Source: Candidatus Sulfopaludibacter sp. SbA3 | GTDB lineage: Bacteria > Acidobacteriota > Terriglobia > Bryobacterales > Bryobacteraceae | Length of the DNA: 64,000 nt | Assembly: GCA_945893365.1 (NCBI GenBank) | Contig: CAMDED010000003.1 | Location: 62,001-126,000 of the forward strand | Direction of reading: 5' to 3' | Shown here: one piece after another, positions 33,353-48,335 of the stretch | Position numbering within the stretch: position 1 is the stretch's first letter | Layout: each line of letters opens with the position of its first letter | The notes under the pieces: generated by a model | What the model was told of the DNA's origin: nothing | The model's input: the letters and a program-made list of their open reading frames with translations, nothing else | Database searches by the model: none | Made by a program: the position numbers and the translations under genes

Positions 33353-34105
33353 TTGCGGGATGCCGGCATTCGCTTCGGCGGCGTTGAGATTCTGAGCGGC
33401 GTGTCGCTCGACTTCGATGCAGCGGGTCTGACGGCAATCGTGGGACCGAACGGCGCGGGGAAATCGACGCTGCTCTCCATCCTCGCCGGGCTGCGAAGCG
33501 GGTACACGGGCGAGTGCCGGTACAAGGGCAGGGAAGTGAGCGCGTGGAAGCGCCGCGCCTTCGCGAGGGAAGTCTCGTTCGTGCCACAGAGTCTGCAACT
33601 CGAGTTTCCGTTTACCGCGGAGCAAGTCGTGTTCATGGGCCGCACGCCCTTCTGCGACGGCCTGTTTGAATCGCCCGAAGACGCGATCGAGGTGGAGCGT
33701 GCGATGGCAATCACGGACACGCTTCGGTTCCGCCACCGCGATTTTGGGACGCTCAGCGGCGGAGAGCGTCAGCGCGTGGTGCTTGCCGGAGCGCTCGCTC
33801 AGCGGCCGCGGACGCTGCTTCTGGATGAGCCGGCGACGTTTCTCGACTTGAAGCATCAGGTGGAAATATACAGGCTGCTGCGCAATCTTTGCCGCGAAGG
33901 CCTATTAGCTTTGGTGGTGACGCATGACATCAATCTGGCCGCGGCGTTCGCCGACCGCGTCGTGATGCTCGCGAACGGACGGGTGGTGGCGGATGGGCCG
34001 GTGCAATCGACGCTGACGCGCGCGTCGATTTCCGAGGTGTTTGGGTTGTACGTGGAAATGCACGAAGGGCGCGACGGGCGTCCGTGGATTCTCTATGGCG
34101 GTTAA
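33353..34105 (+). CDS. btuD: Corrinoid ABC transporter ATPase
   Basis: About 250 residues of a FecE/BtuD-type ATPase. IVGPNGAGKSTLLS is Walker A, FVPQSL the Q-loop, GTLSGGERQRVVLAGAL the signature, TLLLDEPATFLDLKHQ Walker B plus D-loop, and VVTHDINLAAAFADRV the H-loop. The start is uncertain: TTG at 33353 gives a compact N-terminus, but the frame is also open for six more codons (from 33335) and no clear ribosome binding site decides. It overlaps btuC by 11 bp. Confidence 0.92.
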   Translation: MRDAGIRFGGVEILSGVSLDFDAAGLTAIVGPNGAGKSTLLSILAGLRSGYTGECRYKGREVSAWKRRAFAREVSFVPQSLQLEFPFTAEQVVFMGRTPFCDGLFESPEDAIEVERAMAITDTLRFRHRDFGTLSGGERQRVVLAGALAQRPRTLLLDEPATFLDLKHQVEIYRLLRNLCREGLLALVVTHDINLAAAFADRVVMLANGRVVADGPVQSTLTRASISEVFGLYVEMHEGRDGRPWILYGG

Positions 34106-35084
34106 GTACTCGACCGCGCTTGCGGGATCGGCCGCCTTGCTGGGCGCGGTGTTGTGCACGATGCCATTCCTCGGTTCGACAAGCATTCATTTCGGCCGCG
34201 CCTTTGCAGGCATTTCTCCCGACAAAGAGATCTTTCTCTATGCCCGATTGCCGCGGGTGCTGCTCTCGGGGATCGCCGGCGGCGGACTGGCTGTGGCGGG
34301 CGTGTTGTTTCAGGCGCTGGTCCGCGATGCGCTGGCGACGCCTTTCACGCTGGGCATCTCGAGCGGCAGCGCGCTCGGCGCGGTGATGGCGATCTGCTTC
34401 GGGTGGAGCGCGGCCACGAGCTTCCCCGTGGTTTGGATGGCCGCGTTTGCCGGCGCGTCGGTGACGGTGCTGCTCGTGATGTGGCTCGCCGCCGTTGGCA
34501 GACGCATGTCGTCGTTCACGCTGCTGCTCTCCGGCGTCACGATCAACAGCATCTGTCTCGCGTTGATTTTGTTCCTGCACTATCTGGCGAATTTCGGCCA
34601 GTCCTTCGCGATCGTGCGCTGGCTCGTGGGCGGCATCGACACGGTGGAATATTCCACTTTGGCTTGGCTCGCGGCCGTGATGGCGCCCGCCGTATTTTAC
34701 GTCTGCCTTCGCGGGCGCGACTGGAACCTCCTTTCAGTGGGCGAGGACTGGGCGGCGGCTCGCGGCGTTTCGGTGTCGCGCCTGATACTGACGGGTTATT
34801 TGTTGGGGTCCCTGATTACCGGCTCCGTCACGGCGCTCACGGGGCCCATTGGCTTTGTCGGGCTGATTGTGCCGCACGCGCTGCGGACAAGGCTCGGGGC
34901 GGACCATCGCATCCTTCTGCCGTGCTCGTTCTTCGTAGGGGCGGCGTTTCTGGCGATTTGCGATACGATTGCGCGGATCGTCATCGCTCCCACGGAAGTG
35001 CCGGTGGGCGTGATCACGGCGTTGATCGGCGGACCGTTCTTCATCTGGCTGCTGCGGTCTAAGAGGAAAAGCCTGTGGTTGTAG
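34095..35084 (+). CDS. btuC: Corrinoid ABC transporter permease (FecCD family)
   Basis: A 329-residue inner-membrane permease with about ten hydrophobic helices. LPRVLLSGIAGGGLAVAGVL with FQALVRDALATPFTLGISSG is the FecCD/BtuC hallmark, and GPIGFVGLIVPHALRTRLGADHR near the C-terminus is the conserved cytoplasmic coupling region that meets the ATPase. EVPVGVITALIGGPFFIWLL ends the protein as in BtuC. It overlaps genes on both sides, so btuF-D-C are made together. Confidence 0.93.
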   Translation: MAVKYSTALAGSAALLGAVLCTMPFLGSTSIHFGRAFAGISPDKEIFLYARLPRVLLSGIAGGGLAVAGVLFQALVRDALATPFTLGISSGSALGAVMAICFGWSAATSFPVVWMAAFAGASVTVLLVMWLAAVGRRMSSFTLLLSGVTINSICLALILFLHYLANFGQSFAIVRWLVGGIDTVEYSTLAWLAAVMAPAVFYVCLRGRDWNLLSVGEDWAAARGVSVSRLILTGYLLGSLITGSVTALTGPIGFVGLIVPHALRTRLGADHRILLPCSFFVGAAFLAICDTIARIVIAPTEVPVGVITALIGGPFFIWLLRSKRKSLWL

Positions 35085-43709: not shown

Positions 43710-44113
43710 CTTTTTGTCCTGAAGCCGTCTCCTCAAGAGAAGACTTGATTGTATCGCGAATCGCCGGCCGGTCATTGTTTGGGGTTTGGGAAGGGCGGAT
43801 GTCGCAGCCTCGTTGTCTGAACTGGTGTCGGAGAATAGCGCAGTCTTATTGCGCACCTGCCTTGGGTGCCTAACGCCGCCGCCCCGAACAAACGAGTCAA
43901 ACAGGTTCGACTCCTCCCATCAACCCGAAAACCCGCTGTTGTCGATCTTGTTGCAGATGCACTACCAGAGAGGCCGAGTCGCGGACCGCGCGGGTTCCCA
44001 CGCGGGTGCTTACGACGAGCTTAATCCCAATTTGAATGGAATCCGAGAACCGCCTGCCGGCGTGCAGCGCAAAAAAACGAATGCTTTGACTTTTTGCCAT
44101 AAGCGCTTCTAGA
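43710..44113. other. 404-bp gap upstream of the AAA gene
   Basis: No gene is supported here on either strand; short open frames lack family-like sequence. It contains the promoter regions of the minus-strand AAA gene and of the accessory block that starts at 44.1 kb. An A-run (near 44070) and the drop in GC towards the right mark the beginning of the lower-GC island. Confidence 0.5.
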
Positions 44114-44254
44114 ATGAAGGGCATGAAGCGGGGACTGATCTCGGCTGTGTTGCGCGAAATGGGTCGCAAGGACGGCAGGAAGGGCGGAAAGAATGGCGGC
44201 GGGTTTCGGATGGGAGTTCTGACTGCGACCGAACCCTTCGAAACTTGCGCTTAA
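44114..44254 (+). CDS. Possible 46-aa Gly/Lys-rich basic protein
   Basis: It reads MKGMKRGLISAVLREMGRKD then GRKGGKNGGGFRMGVLT. This resembles the 'GRKGGxKGGK' start of short basic proteins common in Acidobacteria, but ends early, after ~30 matching residues, so it may be a truncated relic. It stops 15 bp before the ParB-like gene and could be a leader of that operon. No recognised function. Confidence 0.35.
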   Translation: MKGMKRGLISAVLREMGRKDGRKGGKNGGGFRMGVLTATEPFETCA

Positions 44255-44269
44255 GGCGGCCCAGGAGCG

Positions 44270-45472
44270 ATGGGCAAAGTCCAAGTCGTGAATCGCGCGA
44301 TGCGCAAGCCGGTCAACACACCAGTCGAGGCTACTGTTCCTTCAGGCGAGAAAGCGGCTCTGGAACACAGGATCATCCGGGTCCATCCCGACCAGTTATT
44401 TCTGGATGAAGAGAATCCGCGATTGACATCCTCCGCATCCGGCACGTCGCAAGAGGAGTTGTTGCGGGTGTTGTGGACCGAGATGGCCGTGAACGAGGTG
44501 GCAATCTCAGTGGCAGCCAACGGATTCTTTGAGGAGGAACCTCTCTTCGTCGTTCCAAGGGGGCGGCCCGGAGCCGACGGCAAACAGAATTACACAGTGG
44601 TCGAAGGCAACCGCCGCTTGGCTGCGGTAAAGCTCCTCCGAGACGAGAACTTGCGCAAGCGTTTGAAGGCAACGGACATCCAAGGGATTCGGGCCGATCG
44701 TGCGCACACGATTGAGACCTTGCCGGTGTCAGTCTATTCGCAAAGAAAAGATCTTTGGCAGTACTTTGGTTTCCGCCACATCAATGGCCCAAAAGCGTGG
44801 GACGCCTACAGTAAGGCCCTGTATGTCGCAAAGGTGAACCAAGAGTATGGTATTCCTGTGCGACAGGTCGCTGAGAGTATCGGCGACGAAAACTACACGG
44901 TAGAACGGATCTACCGCGGCTATTGCTTATTGCAGCAAGCTGAAGAGCAGGCGGGCTTCTCCAAGGAGGATCGAGTAGCAAATCGCTTCAGTTTCTCCCA
45001 TCTTTATACAGCTGCTTCCCAGCCGGAGTTTCAGAGGTTTCTCGGCATCACCAAGGAGAATTCGCTTCAGAAGAATCCGGTTCCGAAAAAACATCTGCCG
45101 CACCTGAAGGAACTTCTGGAATGGTTGTACGGCAACCGCAGCGAAGGCAAACAACCTGTTGTTCGGACGCAGTTCCCAGACTTGAACTATTTACGCGCGG
45201 TTGTGAGCGCCCCTATCGCACTGCATGCTCTTCGCCGAGGGTATCCGATTGAGCGCGCGCACGAAATCAGTGTCGGCGATACAACGCGATTTAGAGAGTC
45301 ACTTTCGTCCGCCAAAGAAGAGTTGTTACAAGCGAAGGCAACCGTTACCACTGGTTACAATGGCGAGTCAGACTTGTTTCACGTCGCAGAGGACATTTTG
45401 GAGGTCGCGCAAGAGCTGACAGAAGAAATGCGTCGCCGATCCAGCAAACCCCGAAAGGATGGTGACCGCTAG
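44270..45472 (+). CDS. ParB/Srx-domain protein of a DNA-modification operon
   Basis: 400 residues. A ParB/sulfiredoxin-like N-terminal domain (about 35-175) starts HRIIRVHPDQLFLDEENPRL and contains VVEGNRRLAAVKLL, with E112-GNRR as the phosphate/nucleotide-binding ParB box. A helical region follows (WDAYSKALYVAKVNQEYGIP...IGDENYTVERIYRG) that looks like the ParB HTH. The C-terminal half is helical and unassigned. Family knowledge: ParB-fold domains bind CTP or act as nucleases/ATPases, and lone copies beside methyltransferases occur in defence and phage loci. Lower GC than its neighbours suggests acquisition. It is followed with no gap by the next gene. Confidence 0.75.
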   Translation: MGKVQVVNRAMRKPVNTPVEATVPSGEKAALEHRIIRVHPDQLFLDEENPRLTSSASGTSQEELLRVLWTEMAVNEVAISVAANGFFEEEPLFVVPRGRPGADGKQNYTVVEGNRRLAAVKLLRDENLRKRLKATDIQGIRADRAHTIETLPVSVYSQRKDLWQYFGFRHINGPKAWDAYSKALYVAKVNQEYGIPVRQVAESIGDENYTVERIYRGYCLLQQAEEQAGFSKEDRVANRFSFSHLYTAASQPEFQRFLGITKENSLQKNPVPKKHLPHLKELLEWLYGNRSEGKQPVVRTQFPDLNYLRAVVSAPIALHALRRGYPIERAHEISVGDTTRFRESLSSAKEELLQAKATVTTGYNGESDLFHVAEDILEVAQELTEEMRRRSSKPRKDGDR

Positions 45473-46363
45473 GTGCCAGGAATCCGGTTGCCAAAGATGG
45501 ACGATGTCCTAAAGTGGGCAGACTGGCTGGAGTTGTCCGCCACCCTCAGCGCAGACGGAAACAGCAGTCGCGGCGATTTGGAAGGCGCCCTCAGACTCAG
45601 CGCGTATTTCGACAGTCAACAAGCCATCGAGAATCGCTGCAACGACGTGTTCTTGGAACTTGCGGATCGGAGTTCCTCCGCGGGGGCTGCGTACCCGTTT
45701 AGCGTCAACGCCAGCTTGCTCGATGCTAAGGGCGAGGTTAAGGACTATCTGGCATACTTCTTCTGCCTGTGCCTGTCGTATGCGGGCTGGAGCAAGAAGA
45801 AAGGTCAGGGACAGGCCGCCGCCCGCATGTTCGAGGAGCTCTCGTGTATTGCGGCCCAGTCCTACGTTGGCGGCGAAACGGCGAGGTTTGCATCTCCACG
45901 AAGAGGGGGTATTTCGGGTCTCCCGAAGAGTTTCAAACAAGCCATTGCCGCTCTGGCTGCGCAGATGGCGGAAGGTGGAGGCTACCGCGATAGGCCGCCG
46001 CGATCCACGAAGGATGATGCACTTGACGTAGTGGCTTGGCGCCACTTTGCAGATCGGCTTCCAGGAAAGCTGGTGCTCGTCGGGCAATGCGCTTCCGGCG
46101 ACGATTGGGCGGATAAACTCAATGACCTCAATCCAGTCGCCTTTACAGATGAGTGGATGATCCAGCCGATTATCAGCCCAATGCTTCGCGCCATGTTTAT
46201 CCCGCATAGAGTACGGCGAGACAAATGGGAACATTGCTGCAGGAGAGCGGGTCTTATCTTCGATCGCTGCCGCCTAGCCCACTGGGTGCACAACGGAGCG
46301 CCAGTACCGATGGATGCGCACCTTGCGTGGACGACGAAGTGTTTGGCAGAGGTCGTTGTGTGA
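45473..46363 (+). CDS. Uncharacterised protein with a possible PD-(D/E)XK-like core
   Basis: 296 residues from a GTG directly after the ParB-like stop (no intergenic base). I do not recognise a named family. The arrangement MFEELSCIAAQSYVGG (E121/E122), then DDALDVVAWRHFAD (D185), then GKLVLVGQCASGDDW (Q205) matches the order of the helix-Glu, strand-Asp and strand-(E/Q) positions of Mrr-like restriction-endonuclease folds. The usual catalytic lysine two residues after Q205 is an alanine. If correct, this would be the nuclease partner of the methyltransferase that overlaps it by 4 bp. The function remains inference; the coding call is firm. Confidence 0.6.
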   Translation: MPGIRLPKMDDVLKWADWLELSATLSADGNSSRGDLEGALRLSAYFDSQQAIENRCNDVFLELADRSSSAGAAYPFSVNASLLDAKGEVKDYLAYFFCLCLSYAGWSKKKGQGQAAARMFEELSCIAAQSYVGGETARFASPRRGGISGLPKSFKQAIAALAAQMAEGGGYRDRPPRSTKDDALDVVAWRHFADRLPGKLVLVGQCASGDDWADKLNDLNPVAFTDEWMIQPIISPMLRAMFIPHRVRRDKWEHCCRRAGLIFDRCRLAHWVHNGAPVPMDAHLAWTTKCLAEVVV

Positions 46364-47460
46364 ACAGGAATAGGCTGCATTCGCTATGCCCCTATTTCGC
46401 CATGTTCCCGGAGACATTTGCCCGTGATCAGCTTGAAGCTCATACCAAGCCTGGCGATCTTGTCTTTGACCCGTTTTCCGGTCGCGGTACAACTCTTCTT
46501 CAATCGTTGCTAATGGGGAGGCGAGCGGTCGCGGCCGACATCAACCCGGTTGCGTATTGCATCAGCGGTGCAAAGGCTACGGTTCCCAGGCTTTCCTCAG
46601 TCCTGAGGAGGTTAGAAATCCTAGAGAGCCAGTTTGATCCGGCTTGCGAGGAGTCAGTCGGTAAGTCCTTGCCTGAGTTTTTCTCACATGCCTACGCTTC
46701 CGCTGTGCTTTCGCAAATACTCTTCCTCCGGCACTCACTCACGTGGCGGCGAAATCATGTTGACAGATTCATTGCTGCTCTCGTGCTTGGCTCTTTGCAC
46801 GGCGGGATGGACAAGTCACCTTCCTATTTCAGCAATCAGATGCCGCGCACGATCAGCACCAAGCCGGGTTACTCAATACGCTACTGGCTGCGACACAAGC
46901 TGCTGCCGCCCTCAAGAGACGTATTTGACATATTGCGGAAGCGAGCGGCGTACCGTCTGAGTGCCGAGGTTCCTTTATTGCGGGGGTCGGTCGCTCTCAC
47001 GGACGCGCGCAAAGCGTCAGAAGTTTTTGCGAAGTTCAAGAATCAGGTCAATCTCATCGTGACATCCCCGCCCTACCTGGATGTCACACGCTACGAAGAG
47101 GACCAGTGGCTCCGGCTCTGGTTTCTTGGGCACGCGCCCTTCCCGACGTATTCCCAGGTCAGCGTGGACGACCGACACACAGCACCGACGAAATACTGGG
47201 AATTTCTGCGCTCGGTTTGGAGTGGAGTAGCCGGCATGCTGGCGCCGAAGAGCATCATGATCTGCCGCATCGGCACAAAGCATCAGTCTATTGAAGATCT
47301 GACGAACGGTCTATCGTTGAGCTTGAGAGGAGTTTTCCCGGACCTTCGTTCGCTACGGCCGGCGGTCGTGTCGAACATCCGAAATCGTCAAACGGAGTAC
47401 TTTCACCCTGGAACGACTGGTTGTCTCCGCGAGGTGGACTTCGCATTTCAGCTCACATAG
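46360..47460 (+). CDS. DNA methyltransferase, N4-cytosine/N6-adenine type
   Basis: About 366 residues from the GTG overlapping the upstream stop (GTGA), with AGAGG seven bases before. Motif I is LVFDPFSGRGTTLLQSLLMG (D37-P-F-S-G-R-G), followed by AADINPVAYCISGAK. The catalytic motif IV is VTSPPYLD at 235-241, followed by the EEDQWLRLWFL region. Motif I precedes motif IV, as in alpha/gamma-type order. The region between (about 80-225) is probably the target-recognition or lid part. All key residues are present, so it should methylate DNA. It is the third gene of a tightly coupled operon. Confidence 0.85.
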   Translation: MNRNRLHSLCPYFAMFPETFARDQLEAHTKPGDLVFDPFSGRGTTLLQSLLMGRRAVAADINPVAYCISGAKATVPRLSSVLRRLEILESQFDPACEESVGKSLPEFFSHAYASAVLSQILFLRHSLTWRRNHVDRFIAALVLGSLHGGMDKSPSYFSNQMPRTISTKPGYSIRYWLRHKLLPPSRDVFDILRKRAAYRLSAEVPLLRGSVALTDARKASEVFAKFKNQVNLIVTSPPYLDVTRYEEDQWLRLWFLGHAPFPTYSQVSVDDRHTAPTKYWEFLRSVWSGVAGMLAPKSIMICRIGTKHQSIEDLTNGLSLSLRGVFPDLRSLRPAVVSNIRNRQTEYFHPGTTGCLREVDFAFQLT

Positions 47461-47740
47461 GATCCGTCGGGCGAAAAGGCCCGCGGATTCGAGCCCGCCC
47501 GTTGTCGATAGCACAGGAACTGTTGATGATCTCTCCTGCTCGTGCCTCCATGCTCAACAGGGTTCAGCGACCTCAGCGGGACAGTTGCATTTCCTTGAAA
47601 CACAAGTGCTCGGAAAATGGGGCATCCTCAGAGCGCGGTGGGAGCCAACTTGGGCGTGGGTTGTCGAGCGTTAAATCGACCCGTCCGACAAATAAGCAAA
47701 TAGAATACGGGGCTGTGGTGAAATAAGCCTACTTCGCAGT

Positions 47741-48174
47741 CGCTCGATACTCATTGGCGCCGGGCGGCGCTGGTTCGACGTAAGCCGGGCGATCGCTCTT
47801 GCGATCCTAGCGAACGGTGGGCCTGAGCGCGTGGTGGAAATCGTCCGGCGCGCCAACCATCTGAGGGTGCGGAACGGCAGCGAGTGCTGGCCCAGTTGGT
47901 GTTGCTTTGCGGGTTGCGGCAGGTAACGGGAAGGCGCACAACGGAGTTGAAGACTATGGGCACACTGATTAATATCGCCAAGAACGAAATTCTGAGGGAC
48001 TTGATCCGAGACGGCCAGGCGAGTATCGTCCGCGTACAACTGGAGACGAAATTCGGTAAGTTGCCCAAGTGGGTGGATGAGCGTCTGGGTCACGCGAAGT
48101 TGTCCGACGTCGAACGGTGGTCGATAAGACTCCTTACCGCCGATACGCTCGAAGGCGTGCTCGGCAAGAGGTAA
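47741..48174 (+). pseudogene. Frameshifted Rpn/DUF4351-type protein remnant
   Basis: The frame from ~47741 reads RRWFDVSRAIALAILANGGP then ERVVEIVRRANHL. After one apparent missing base near 47865 the next frame continues GAERQRVLAQLVLLCGLR and AKNEILRDLIRDGQ to TKFGKLPKWVDERLGHAKL and a C-terminus TADTLEGVLG. That tail is the DUF4351-like end of Rpn-family (PD-(D/E)XK, recombination-promoting) proteins. The N-terminal nuclease domain is absent. The intact stretch can start at 47884 (GTG) or 47956 (ATG). Confidence 0.55.
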
Positions 48175-48335
48175 GCTCCTCGTGGCGCCGGGGCTGCGCG
48201 GTCGGTACGTCTACACGGTCCTTTCGCCTCTAGCGCGCGTCGCCGGAGCGTGAATCCACTTACGCCTTCACCGTCAGTCCCGCGATTGAAACGGTTGATC
48301 CCCCGCCGCATCCAGTACAATGCCCTGGAGGAACC

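Follow-up and report, generated by a model that had tools for sequence, protein, structure and literature searches.

What do a ParB-like protein, a protein of no named family and a DNA methyltransferase do together when their genes stand in one tight row? The question is raised by positions 44270 to 47460 of a 64,000-nucleotide stretch of Candidatus Sulfopaludibacter sp. SbA3 (contig CAMDED010000003.1, positions 62,001 to 126,000), an acidobacterium; this whole stretch is called the window here. We read the trio as a restriction-modification-type defence system, with a probability of roughly three in four, in which the ParB-like protein and a nuclease would restrict unmarked DNA and the methyltransferase would mark self. 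What is new here is an uncatalogued family of predicted nucleases, that of the middle gene, in a probable restriction-modification-type system. An initial annotation, made from the letters of the window alone, had proposed a modification-based anti-phage system. This proposal is supported by the co-occurrence of the three families, by the predicted nuclease fold of the middle protein and by kinship with the defence system PD-Lambda-5.

All three genes lie on the + strand. The first (44270..45472) encodes a 400-residue protein with a ParB/KorB/Noc fold according to the open reading frame (ORF) list, a structure model and a match to PHROG 3694 (E 1e-75). The second (45473..46363) encodes a 296-residue protein whose model shows a winged helix followed by a PD-(D/E)XK nuclease-like domain, and which matches PHROG 14650 (E 2e-28), a family without assigned function. 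The third (46360..47460) encodes a 366-residue N4/N6 DNA methyltransferase (PF01555, E 3e-16; PADLOC MTase_II, E 1e-30). Frames and junctions are those initially annotated: the GTG start of the middle gene stands immediately 3' of the TAG stop of the first, with 0 base pairs (bp) between them, and the middle and third genes overlap by the 4 bp GTGA. The start codon of the methyltransferase gene is likewise GTG, which is supported because the enzyme of a second copy of the trio in the same genome starts at the homologous residue. Translation may well be coupled across both junctions.

The ParB–nuclease pair and its methyltransferase partners

A peptide-pattern search from the single middle-protein sequence found no relatives, and an alignment of ParB-like proteins was therefore used as seed. 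With it the best 80 of 492 loci from bacterial and archaeal genomes and the best 80 of 137 from viral contigs were fetched, a selection that leans towards the ParB of the window. In this sample the nuclease and methyltransferase counts are independent of the seed and the ParB counts depend on it; the sample includes near-copies, and reduction to 75% identity leaves 112 middle and 107 ParB proteins. In 154 of the 160 loci (147 under a stricter distance rule), a gene for a relative of the middle protein comes after ParB. Three of the six loci without it (L018, L022 and L125) stop 0–745 bp past the ParB frame, and in L034 an N4/N6 methyltransferase gene comes after the ParB gene. In the last two, from gammaproteobacterial metagenome-assembled genomes (L047:8100-11310 and L065:8100-11439), the middle gene is replaced by a NotI-type endonuclease and a D12 methyltransferase on the other strand, with the NotI-type call made by PF12183 on L047 and by clustering on L065.

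The reverse check, a search of 396 Acidobacteriota genomes with a profile of the middle protein, gives eight loci in seven genomes, that of the window included. ParB adjoins all eight, and in one genome (G450) the middle gene is split over two frames. Two more ParB loci of this set have no detected middle gene. The first (G324, L223:2007-5346) contains in a row a C5 methyltransferase, ParB, a protein of 263 residues in which a D-x(n)-QCK motif can be made out by eye, and a gene that we take to be Vsr-like; the 263-residue protein has no match to the nuclease profile at E 1e-6. The second (G305) retains a truncated ParB frame and a fragment of a methyltransferase gene. A partial nuclease copy without a detected ParB beside it is present in L007. 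Fusions of ParB and nuclease were not found among the ORFs of the collected loci.

Of the 154 pairs, 143 have a methyltransferase gene no more than 600 bp away. By Pfam on representatives, these enzymes fall into three unrelated families, N4/N6 (PF01555) with 27 cases, D12 adenine (PF02086) with 74 and C5 cytosine (PF00145) with 42. Among the 11 remaining pairs, six are near a contig end and five have room; in L035 and L168 a methyltransferase is located one or two genes farther out. These counts bear out the expectation of the initial annotation that the families co-occur in other genomes, the window's own N4/N6 class included. Methyltransferases fill 141 of the 295 gene slots adjoining the pair, compared with 17 of 1431 slots at ranks 2–8. 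The nuclease-seeded Acidobacteriota loci contain one in 8/8 cases, five N4/N6 (including both copies of the window's genome), one D12 and two C5.

The class of this enzyme is exchanged along the ParB phylogeny. On a 98-row ParB tree we count 12 class changes by a quick method, where shuffling gives a mean of 38. Eight D12-or-N4/N6 changes are forced by well-supported branches, and the C5 sets form one side of a branch with low support (54). Segments of ParB and nuclease covary with rho 0.68–0.85 in the D12 set (n = 67) and 0.60–0.82 in the C5 set (n = 27), while the corresponding values with the methyltransferase are 0.34–0.39 and 0.35–0.61. Such a pattern, in which two genes form the core and the methyltransferase can be exchanged, would be expected of a restriction arm whose self-marking enzymes are replaceable.

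The window methyltransferase itself carries both motifs claimed for it, motif I DPFSGRG (residues 37-43, 46468-46488, + strand) and motif IV TSPPY (residues 235-239, 47062-47076). Motif I precedes motif IV, which is the order of alpha-type amino methyltransferases, enzymes in which a target-recognition region separates the two. The same order is found in 22 of 27 N4/N6 relatives; in the other five, one of which (L016) is a fragment, one of the two motifs was not found.

Predicted structures of the middle and ParB-like proteins

The middle protein is nearly invisible to sequence comparison. Pfam matches none of 89 middle-protein sequences. Four PADLOC families match one member each at E 0.004–0.007 and none matches the window protein, the nuclease profile has no match to solved structures at E ≤ 1, and the PHROG matches are to families without assigned function. 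An AlphaFold2 model of the protein has a predicted local distance difference test (pLDDT) score of 94.3. In this model residues 8-105 (45494..45787, + strand) resemble winged helices, with FOXN1 as match (VIA-align Z 6.1, 80 residues, root-mean-square deviation (rmsd) 3.0). Residues about 106-280 (45788..46312, + strand) form the predicted PD-(D/E)XK nuclease domain, for which VIA-align ranks restriction or nicking endonucleases in all of its first 12 rows, with Z 6.3–7.1; they include BsaWI (7.1), MspJI (6.8), BspD6I (6.8), BsmI (6.6), SdaI (6.5) and FokI (6.5).

The predicted catalytic residues span 45833..46117 on the + strand and comprise E121 (45833-45835), D185 (46025-46027), Q205 (46085-46087) and K215 (46115-46117). 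D185 is kept in 89/89 aligned middle proteins, Q205 in 82/89 and E121 in 71/89. The lysine takes one of two alternative positions: 30 of the 89 sequences have it at 207 alone, two residues past Q205, and 58 at 215 alone; one sequence has both, and no sequence lacks both. Within the PD-(D/E)XK superfamily, the catalytic lysine is known to migrate. The initial annotation had guessed a glutamate, an aspartate and a glutamine in this order; E121, D185 and Q205 are present, all at conserved alignment positions, and the predicted fold is of the restriction-endonuclease type, not one foreign to nucleases. We regard the support for a restriction-endonuclease-like fold as moderate, with the residues carrying the argument and the scores alone being modest.

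The ParB-like protein is modelled with pLDDT 90.9, residues 1-24 being of low confidence. It consists of a ParB domain at about 33-174, a helix-turn-helix (HTH) region to about 317 and a helical C-terminus. The best structural relative is KorB (8qa9), with a VIA-align Z of 10.4 over 198 residues (rmsd 4.4) within residues 32-317; Noc follows with Z 9.3 over N-domain and HTH, and ParB bound to cytidine triphosphate (CTP) with Z 8.9 over the N-domain. The trio protein shares N-domain, GxRR box and HTH region with the CTP clamps ParB, KorB and Noc. The EGNRR motif named in the initial annotation by its GNRR box (residues 112-116, 44603..44617, + strand) occupies the site of the GERR-type box; it is invariant in 80/80 aligned sequences, window included, and aligns with the G-E-RR of solved ParB proteins. 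In contrast to these clamps, the trio protein has GNRR instead of GERR, invariant H170, W177 and K182, and a nuclease-like gene partner. The three invariant residues lie in what we take to be the region where ParB has ENxQR.

Kinship with PD-Lambda-5 and the weighing of explanations

PD-Lambda-5, a tested anti-phage system (Vassallo et al. 2022, PMC9519451), likewise combines a ParB-type N-domain with a DNA methyltransferase; its protein make-up is taken here from PADLOC model names. The likeness extends to single proteins. All 73 scanned D12 enzymes beside relatives of the pair match PD-Lambda-5_B (E ≤ 1e-30), and each of the 80 aligned ParB proteins has a PD-Lambda-5_A profile match with E ≤ 1e-3. 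In contrast, the ParB-like protein of the window aligns over the N-domain only (best 65 bits, residues 36-201). Full-length PD-Lambda-5_A proteins in L035 and L064 score 473 and 608 bits in alignments that span almost all of the protein; they comprise 446 and 500 residues and have a C-terminal part of their own. This part has no Pfam match in either protein. By eye it is presumably HEPN-like, which we do not use as evidence. The window has a separate winged-helix PD-(D/E)XK protein in the effector place, and its methyltransferase is of the PF01555 type, with PD-Lambda-5_B not among the best 25 of its 62 PADLOC matches. Judged by these comparisons of the two defining proteins, the trio is a sister to PD-Lambda-5 and not a member of it.

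Both arrangements occur side by side in two loci. In Dyadobacter (L064:5481-10048), PD-Lambda-5_A, D12, ParB and nuclease stand in a row on one strand with the D12 gene between the two sets, which could be two effector sets sharing one methyltransferase. In L035 a ParB–nuclease pair is followed by a pair of PD-Lambda-5_A and D12. The ParB domain and the methyltransferase are probably the part common to the trio and PD-Lambda-5, with the effector being what differs.

Further relatives are found in phages. The set gp98-gp96-mth of the P2-like phage Wphi contains the same three genes, gp96 being annotated without function; unlike in the window, its methyltransferase is a C5 enzyme on the opposite strand. 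Phage 12474III and E. coli SF-088 are further named cases. In these three the genes are annotated as a ParB N-terminal domain protein or gp number, a hypothetical protein or gp number, and a DNA (cytosine) methyltransferase. Of the 79 pairs on viral contigs, 36 are flanked within five called genes by P2 gpA on one side and by portal/terminase families on the other, and six have such a family on one side only; the family names were assigned by Pfam from a single member of each. It is next to the portal gene that PMC9519451 reports a defence hotspot of P2. The ParB-like protein of the window also matches residues 85-336 of the 715-position profile PADLOC PDC-M38A, as do 80/80 aligned ParB proteins at E ≤ 1e-3; the remaining part of the profile represents other sequence, and no PADLOC model fits the nuclease. 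PDC-M38A was also considered as a ParB–methyltransferase fusion; this was dropped, as no methyltransferase motif pair was found in four loci matching its C-terminal half.

No description of the trio was found in the open-licence literature, a scope that excludes subscription papers, REBASE and newer defence catalogues; within it, the initial annotation was right to treat the trio as not described. The ParB–nuclease pair is not described in the accessible portions of PMC5587805, PMC12839542, PMC10853773, PMC6471742, PMC5379612, PMC3091744, PMC5512222, PMC12629846 and PMC9519451.

In the mechanism that we propose, the methyltransferase would mark the cell's own DNA, and the ParB-like and winged-helix PD-(D/E)XK proteins would jointly form the restriction arm that destroys incoming unmarked DNA. 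The ParB-like protein would act as the DNA sensor that binds unmodified DNA via its HTH region, a role argued because ParB is the part common to the trio and PD-Lambda-5. It would then close as a nucleotide-gated clamp, as ParB, KorB and Noc do. The closed clamp would load or activate the nuclease, which would cut with E121, D185, Q205 and K215. That the ParB-like protein gates or recruits the nuclease, as suggested initially, is plausible. Whereas the pairing, the methyltransferase linkage and class exchange, the predicted folds, the conserved residues and the PD-Lambda-5 kinship are computed results, DNA cleavage, protection by methylation, sensing by ParB, nucleotide gating and phage defence are all functions that we infer. 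A more far-reaching version is nucleotide-gated sliding-clamp restriction, in which ParB loads at unmodified sites, slides, and delivers or activates the nuclease. One ParB-plus-methyltransferase chassis would then serve at least two effector types, the DNase-fold protein of the trio and the C-terminal part of PD-Lambda-5_A, and would accept three unrelated methyltransferases. This would be a new mechanistic type of restriction-modification, and we put it forward as a tentative possibility.

The main rival is a plain two-protein Type II system, in which the winged-helix nuclease alone reads and cuts its site and ParB is an accessory, either a regulator or a processivity clamp. A nuclease-fold protein adjoining a DNA methyltransferase of known types is indeed shared with Type II restriction-modification, and a winged helix joined to PD-(D/E)XK makes a sensible site-specific endonuclease, with SdaI among the structural matches. 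The winged helix also covaries weakly with the methyltransferase in all three classes (partial r 0.13, 0.16 and 0.34; permutation p 0.02–0.04 in 15 tests, uncorrected), and in L047 and L065 the NotI-type endonuclease and D12 enzyme stand beside ParB where the usual nuclease is missing. In contrast to a Type II system, the trio has a ParB-fold third component, an exchangeable methyltransferase class and a nuclease family without Pfam or PADLOC model. Moreover, conservation is higher in ParB than in the nuclease (39% versus 22% identity per column on average), ParB is present 8/8 in the nuclease-seeded sample, and its HTH or C-terminal segments give similarly weak partial correlations with the methyltransferase in some classes; the nuclease fragment of L007 without ParB has to be listed beside these points. 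A plain Type II system is in our view somewhat doubtful. Abortive infection, with the ParB-like sensor on unmodified DNA unleashing the nuclease on all DNA and killing the cell, is rather unlikely, with results that would suit either reading; a DNase-type (deoxyribonuclease) effector fold and the linkage to a methyltransferase fit selective cutting.

The roles of the two core proteins might also be reversed, with nuclease or nucleotidase activity residing in the ParB domain and the middle protein acting as its regulator or helper. ParB/Srx domains with DNase or nucleoside triphosphatase activity and a nicking ParB–methylase fusion are reported in PMC5512222. However, D185 and one of the alternative lysines are retained in 89/89 middle proteins, and Q205 in 82/89, as would be the case for an active enzyme, and the structural resemblance of the ParB-like protein is to ParB, KorB and Noc (Z 7.0–10.4) rather than to sulfiredoxin entries (4.6–6.8), making this reversal quite improbable. 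Finally, the ParB clamp fold is known from chromosome and plasmid segregation, and this fold together with the occurrence in prophages would suit maintenance or partition genes of a mobile element with a bystander methyltransferase. Against a bystander role, three methyltransferase classes adjoin the pair, compared with about 1% of slots at ranks 2–8, and a second copy in the same genome lies among genes that by eye resemble housekeeping genes; we give this explanation hardly any credence.

Several observations weigh against a restriction-modification-type system with this nuclease. For the nuclease model, Foldseek has no match at E ≤ 1e-3 (best MspJI, E 4e-3), and its VIA-align Z scores are below 8, a range where a common arrangement can mislead. 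Position 121 is glutamine in 13 of the 89 middle proteins and neither glutamate nor glutamine in five. Three pairs (L073, L082 and L093) have room on both sides with none of the three methyltransferase families found within 600 bp, and the single upstream gene tested in each is no methyltransferase. In the N4/N6 set, the class of the window (n = 26), ParB–nuclease covariation is weaker (0.32–0.67) and overlaps that with the methyltransferase (0.27–0.48). When relatives with different classes of methyltransferase are compared, no segment of ParB or nuclease is consistently more diverged than in same-class pairs, a comparison that includes only four class-differing pairs above 60% ParB identity: in one bin the nuclease domain is 38% identical in 14 class-differing pairs versus 46% in 200 same-class pairs, and in the other two bins its identity is equal or nearly equal. 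For 37 of the 79 pairs on viral contigs, neither gpA nor a portal or terminase family is found nearby, and the set of Pseudomonas phage D14A adjoins tail genes. The second copy of the trio combines an intact nuclease with a methyltransferase split over two frames. This would be surprising for an enzyme that protects the host, except where the split comes from misassembly or protection is provided by the first copy.

If the restriction-modification reading is true, the trio represents an uncatalogued type of defence across many bacterial groups and prophages, in which the ParB clamp fold serves as a DNA-sensing restriction arm. It would explain the pairs of a 'ParB N-terminal domain' and a 'hypothetical' protein beside methyltransferases in P2-like prophages, as in the E. 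coli strain and phage Wphi, and it would unite the trio and PD-Lambda-5 in a single modular family. With methyltransferases swapped in nature, the question of which part reads the DNA becomes approachable. For annotation, defence finders could label D12-bearing copies as PD-Lambda-5 or miss the nuclease.

Genomic setting of the trio and its relatives

The trio has a G+C content of 55.8%, below all 609 equal-length windows taken in 100-bp steps over the 64 kb, and G+C at third codon positions is 62–65% in its genes versus 77–80% in five nearby genes. The lower-GC island of the initial annotation is confirmed by these values; an Rpn remnant claimed nearby was not confirmed by Pfam. DNA similarity within the genus reaches up to 43763 on the left flank (genome G002) and from 48310 on the right (genome G001), a partial empty-site comparison as the contigs do not join the flanks. 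Since similarity ends and resumes at these positions, the trio lies in a 4.5-kb segment (43764..48309, no strand assigned) without counterpart in the compared stretches. The middle gene has no match in G002 or G001, genomes that are 86% and 73% complete. Low G+C and the missing same-genus counterpart fit horizontal acquisition.

The second trio is located on contig C62 of the same genome (L206:7411-8521), and its middle protein is 38% identical to that of the window. Its ParB and nuclease frames are open.

Plasmids contribute few relatives. Among 72,556 plasmid records, four match the middle protein (E ≤ 1e-3) and four the ParB-like protein (E ≤ 1e-20), which leaves little support for the alternative of a plasmid-type system that the initial annotation had included. 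A search of 5426 E. coli genomes with a P2-type set matched 145, among the rows listed mainly over the methyltransferase (~30% of the query), and therefore says little about the ParB–nuclease pair.

Other genes of defence character accompany some of the pairs. In a faecal 'phage' contig (L003:149-8552), genes that by eye are C5 methyltransferase-like and large ATPase-like precede one ParB–nuclease pair, and a second pair faces the first. On a Neorhizobium conjugative plasmid (L004:1378-6861), annotated Z1 and PD-(D/E)XK genes stand directly before the pair with DUF262 near. Type I HsdS and HsdR families, named by Pfam on one member per family, are found beside several ParB–nuclease–D12 sets, in one cluster (c25) with L051, L069, L074, L086, L089 and L091 and in another (c33) with L060, L074, L084 and L089. 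Within the window but away from the trio, the kilobase 34001-35000 has an AT skew of -0.36, the largest among the kilobases of the window table.

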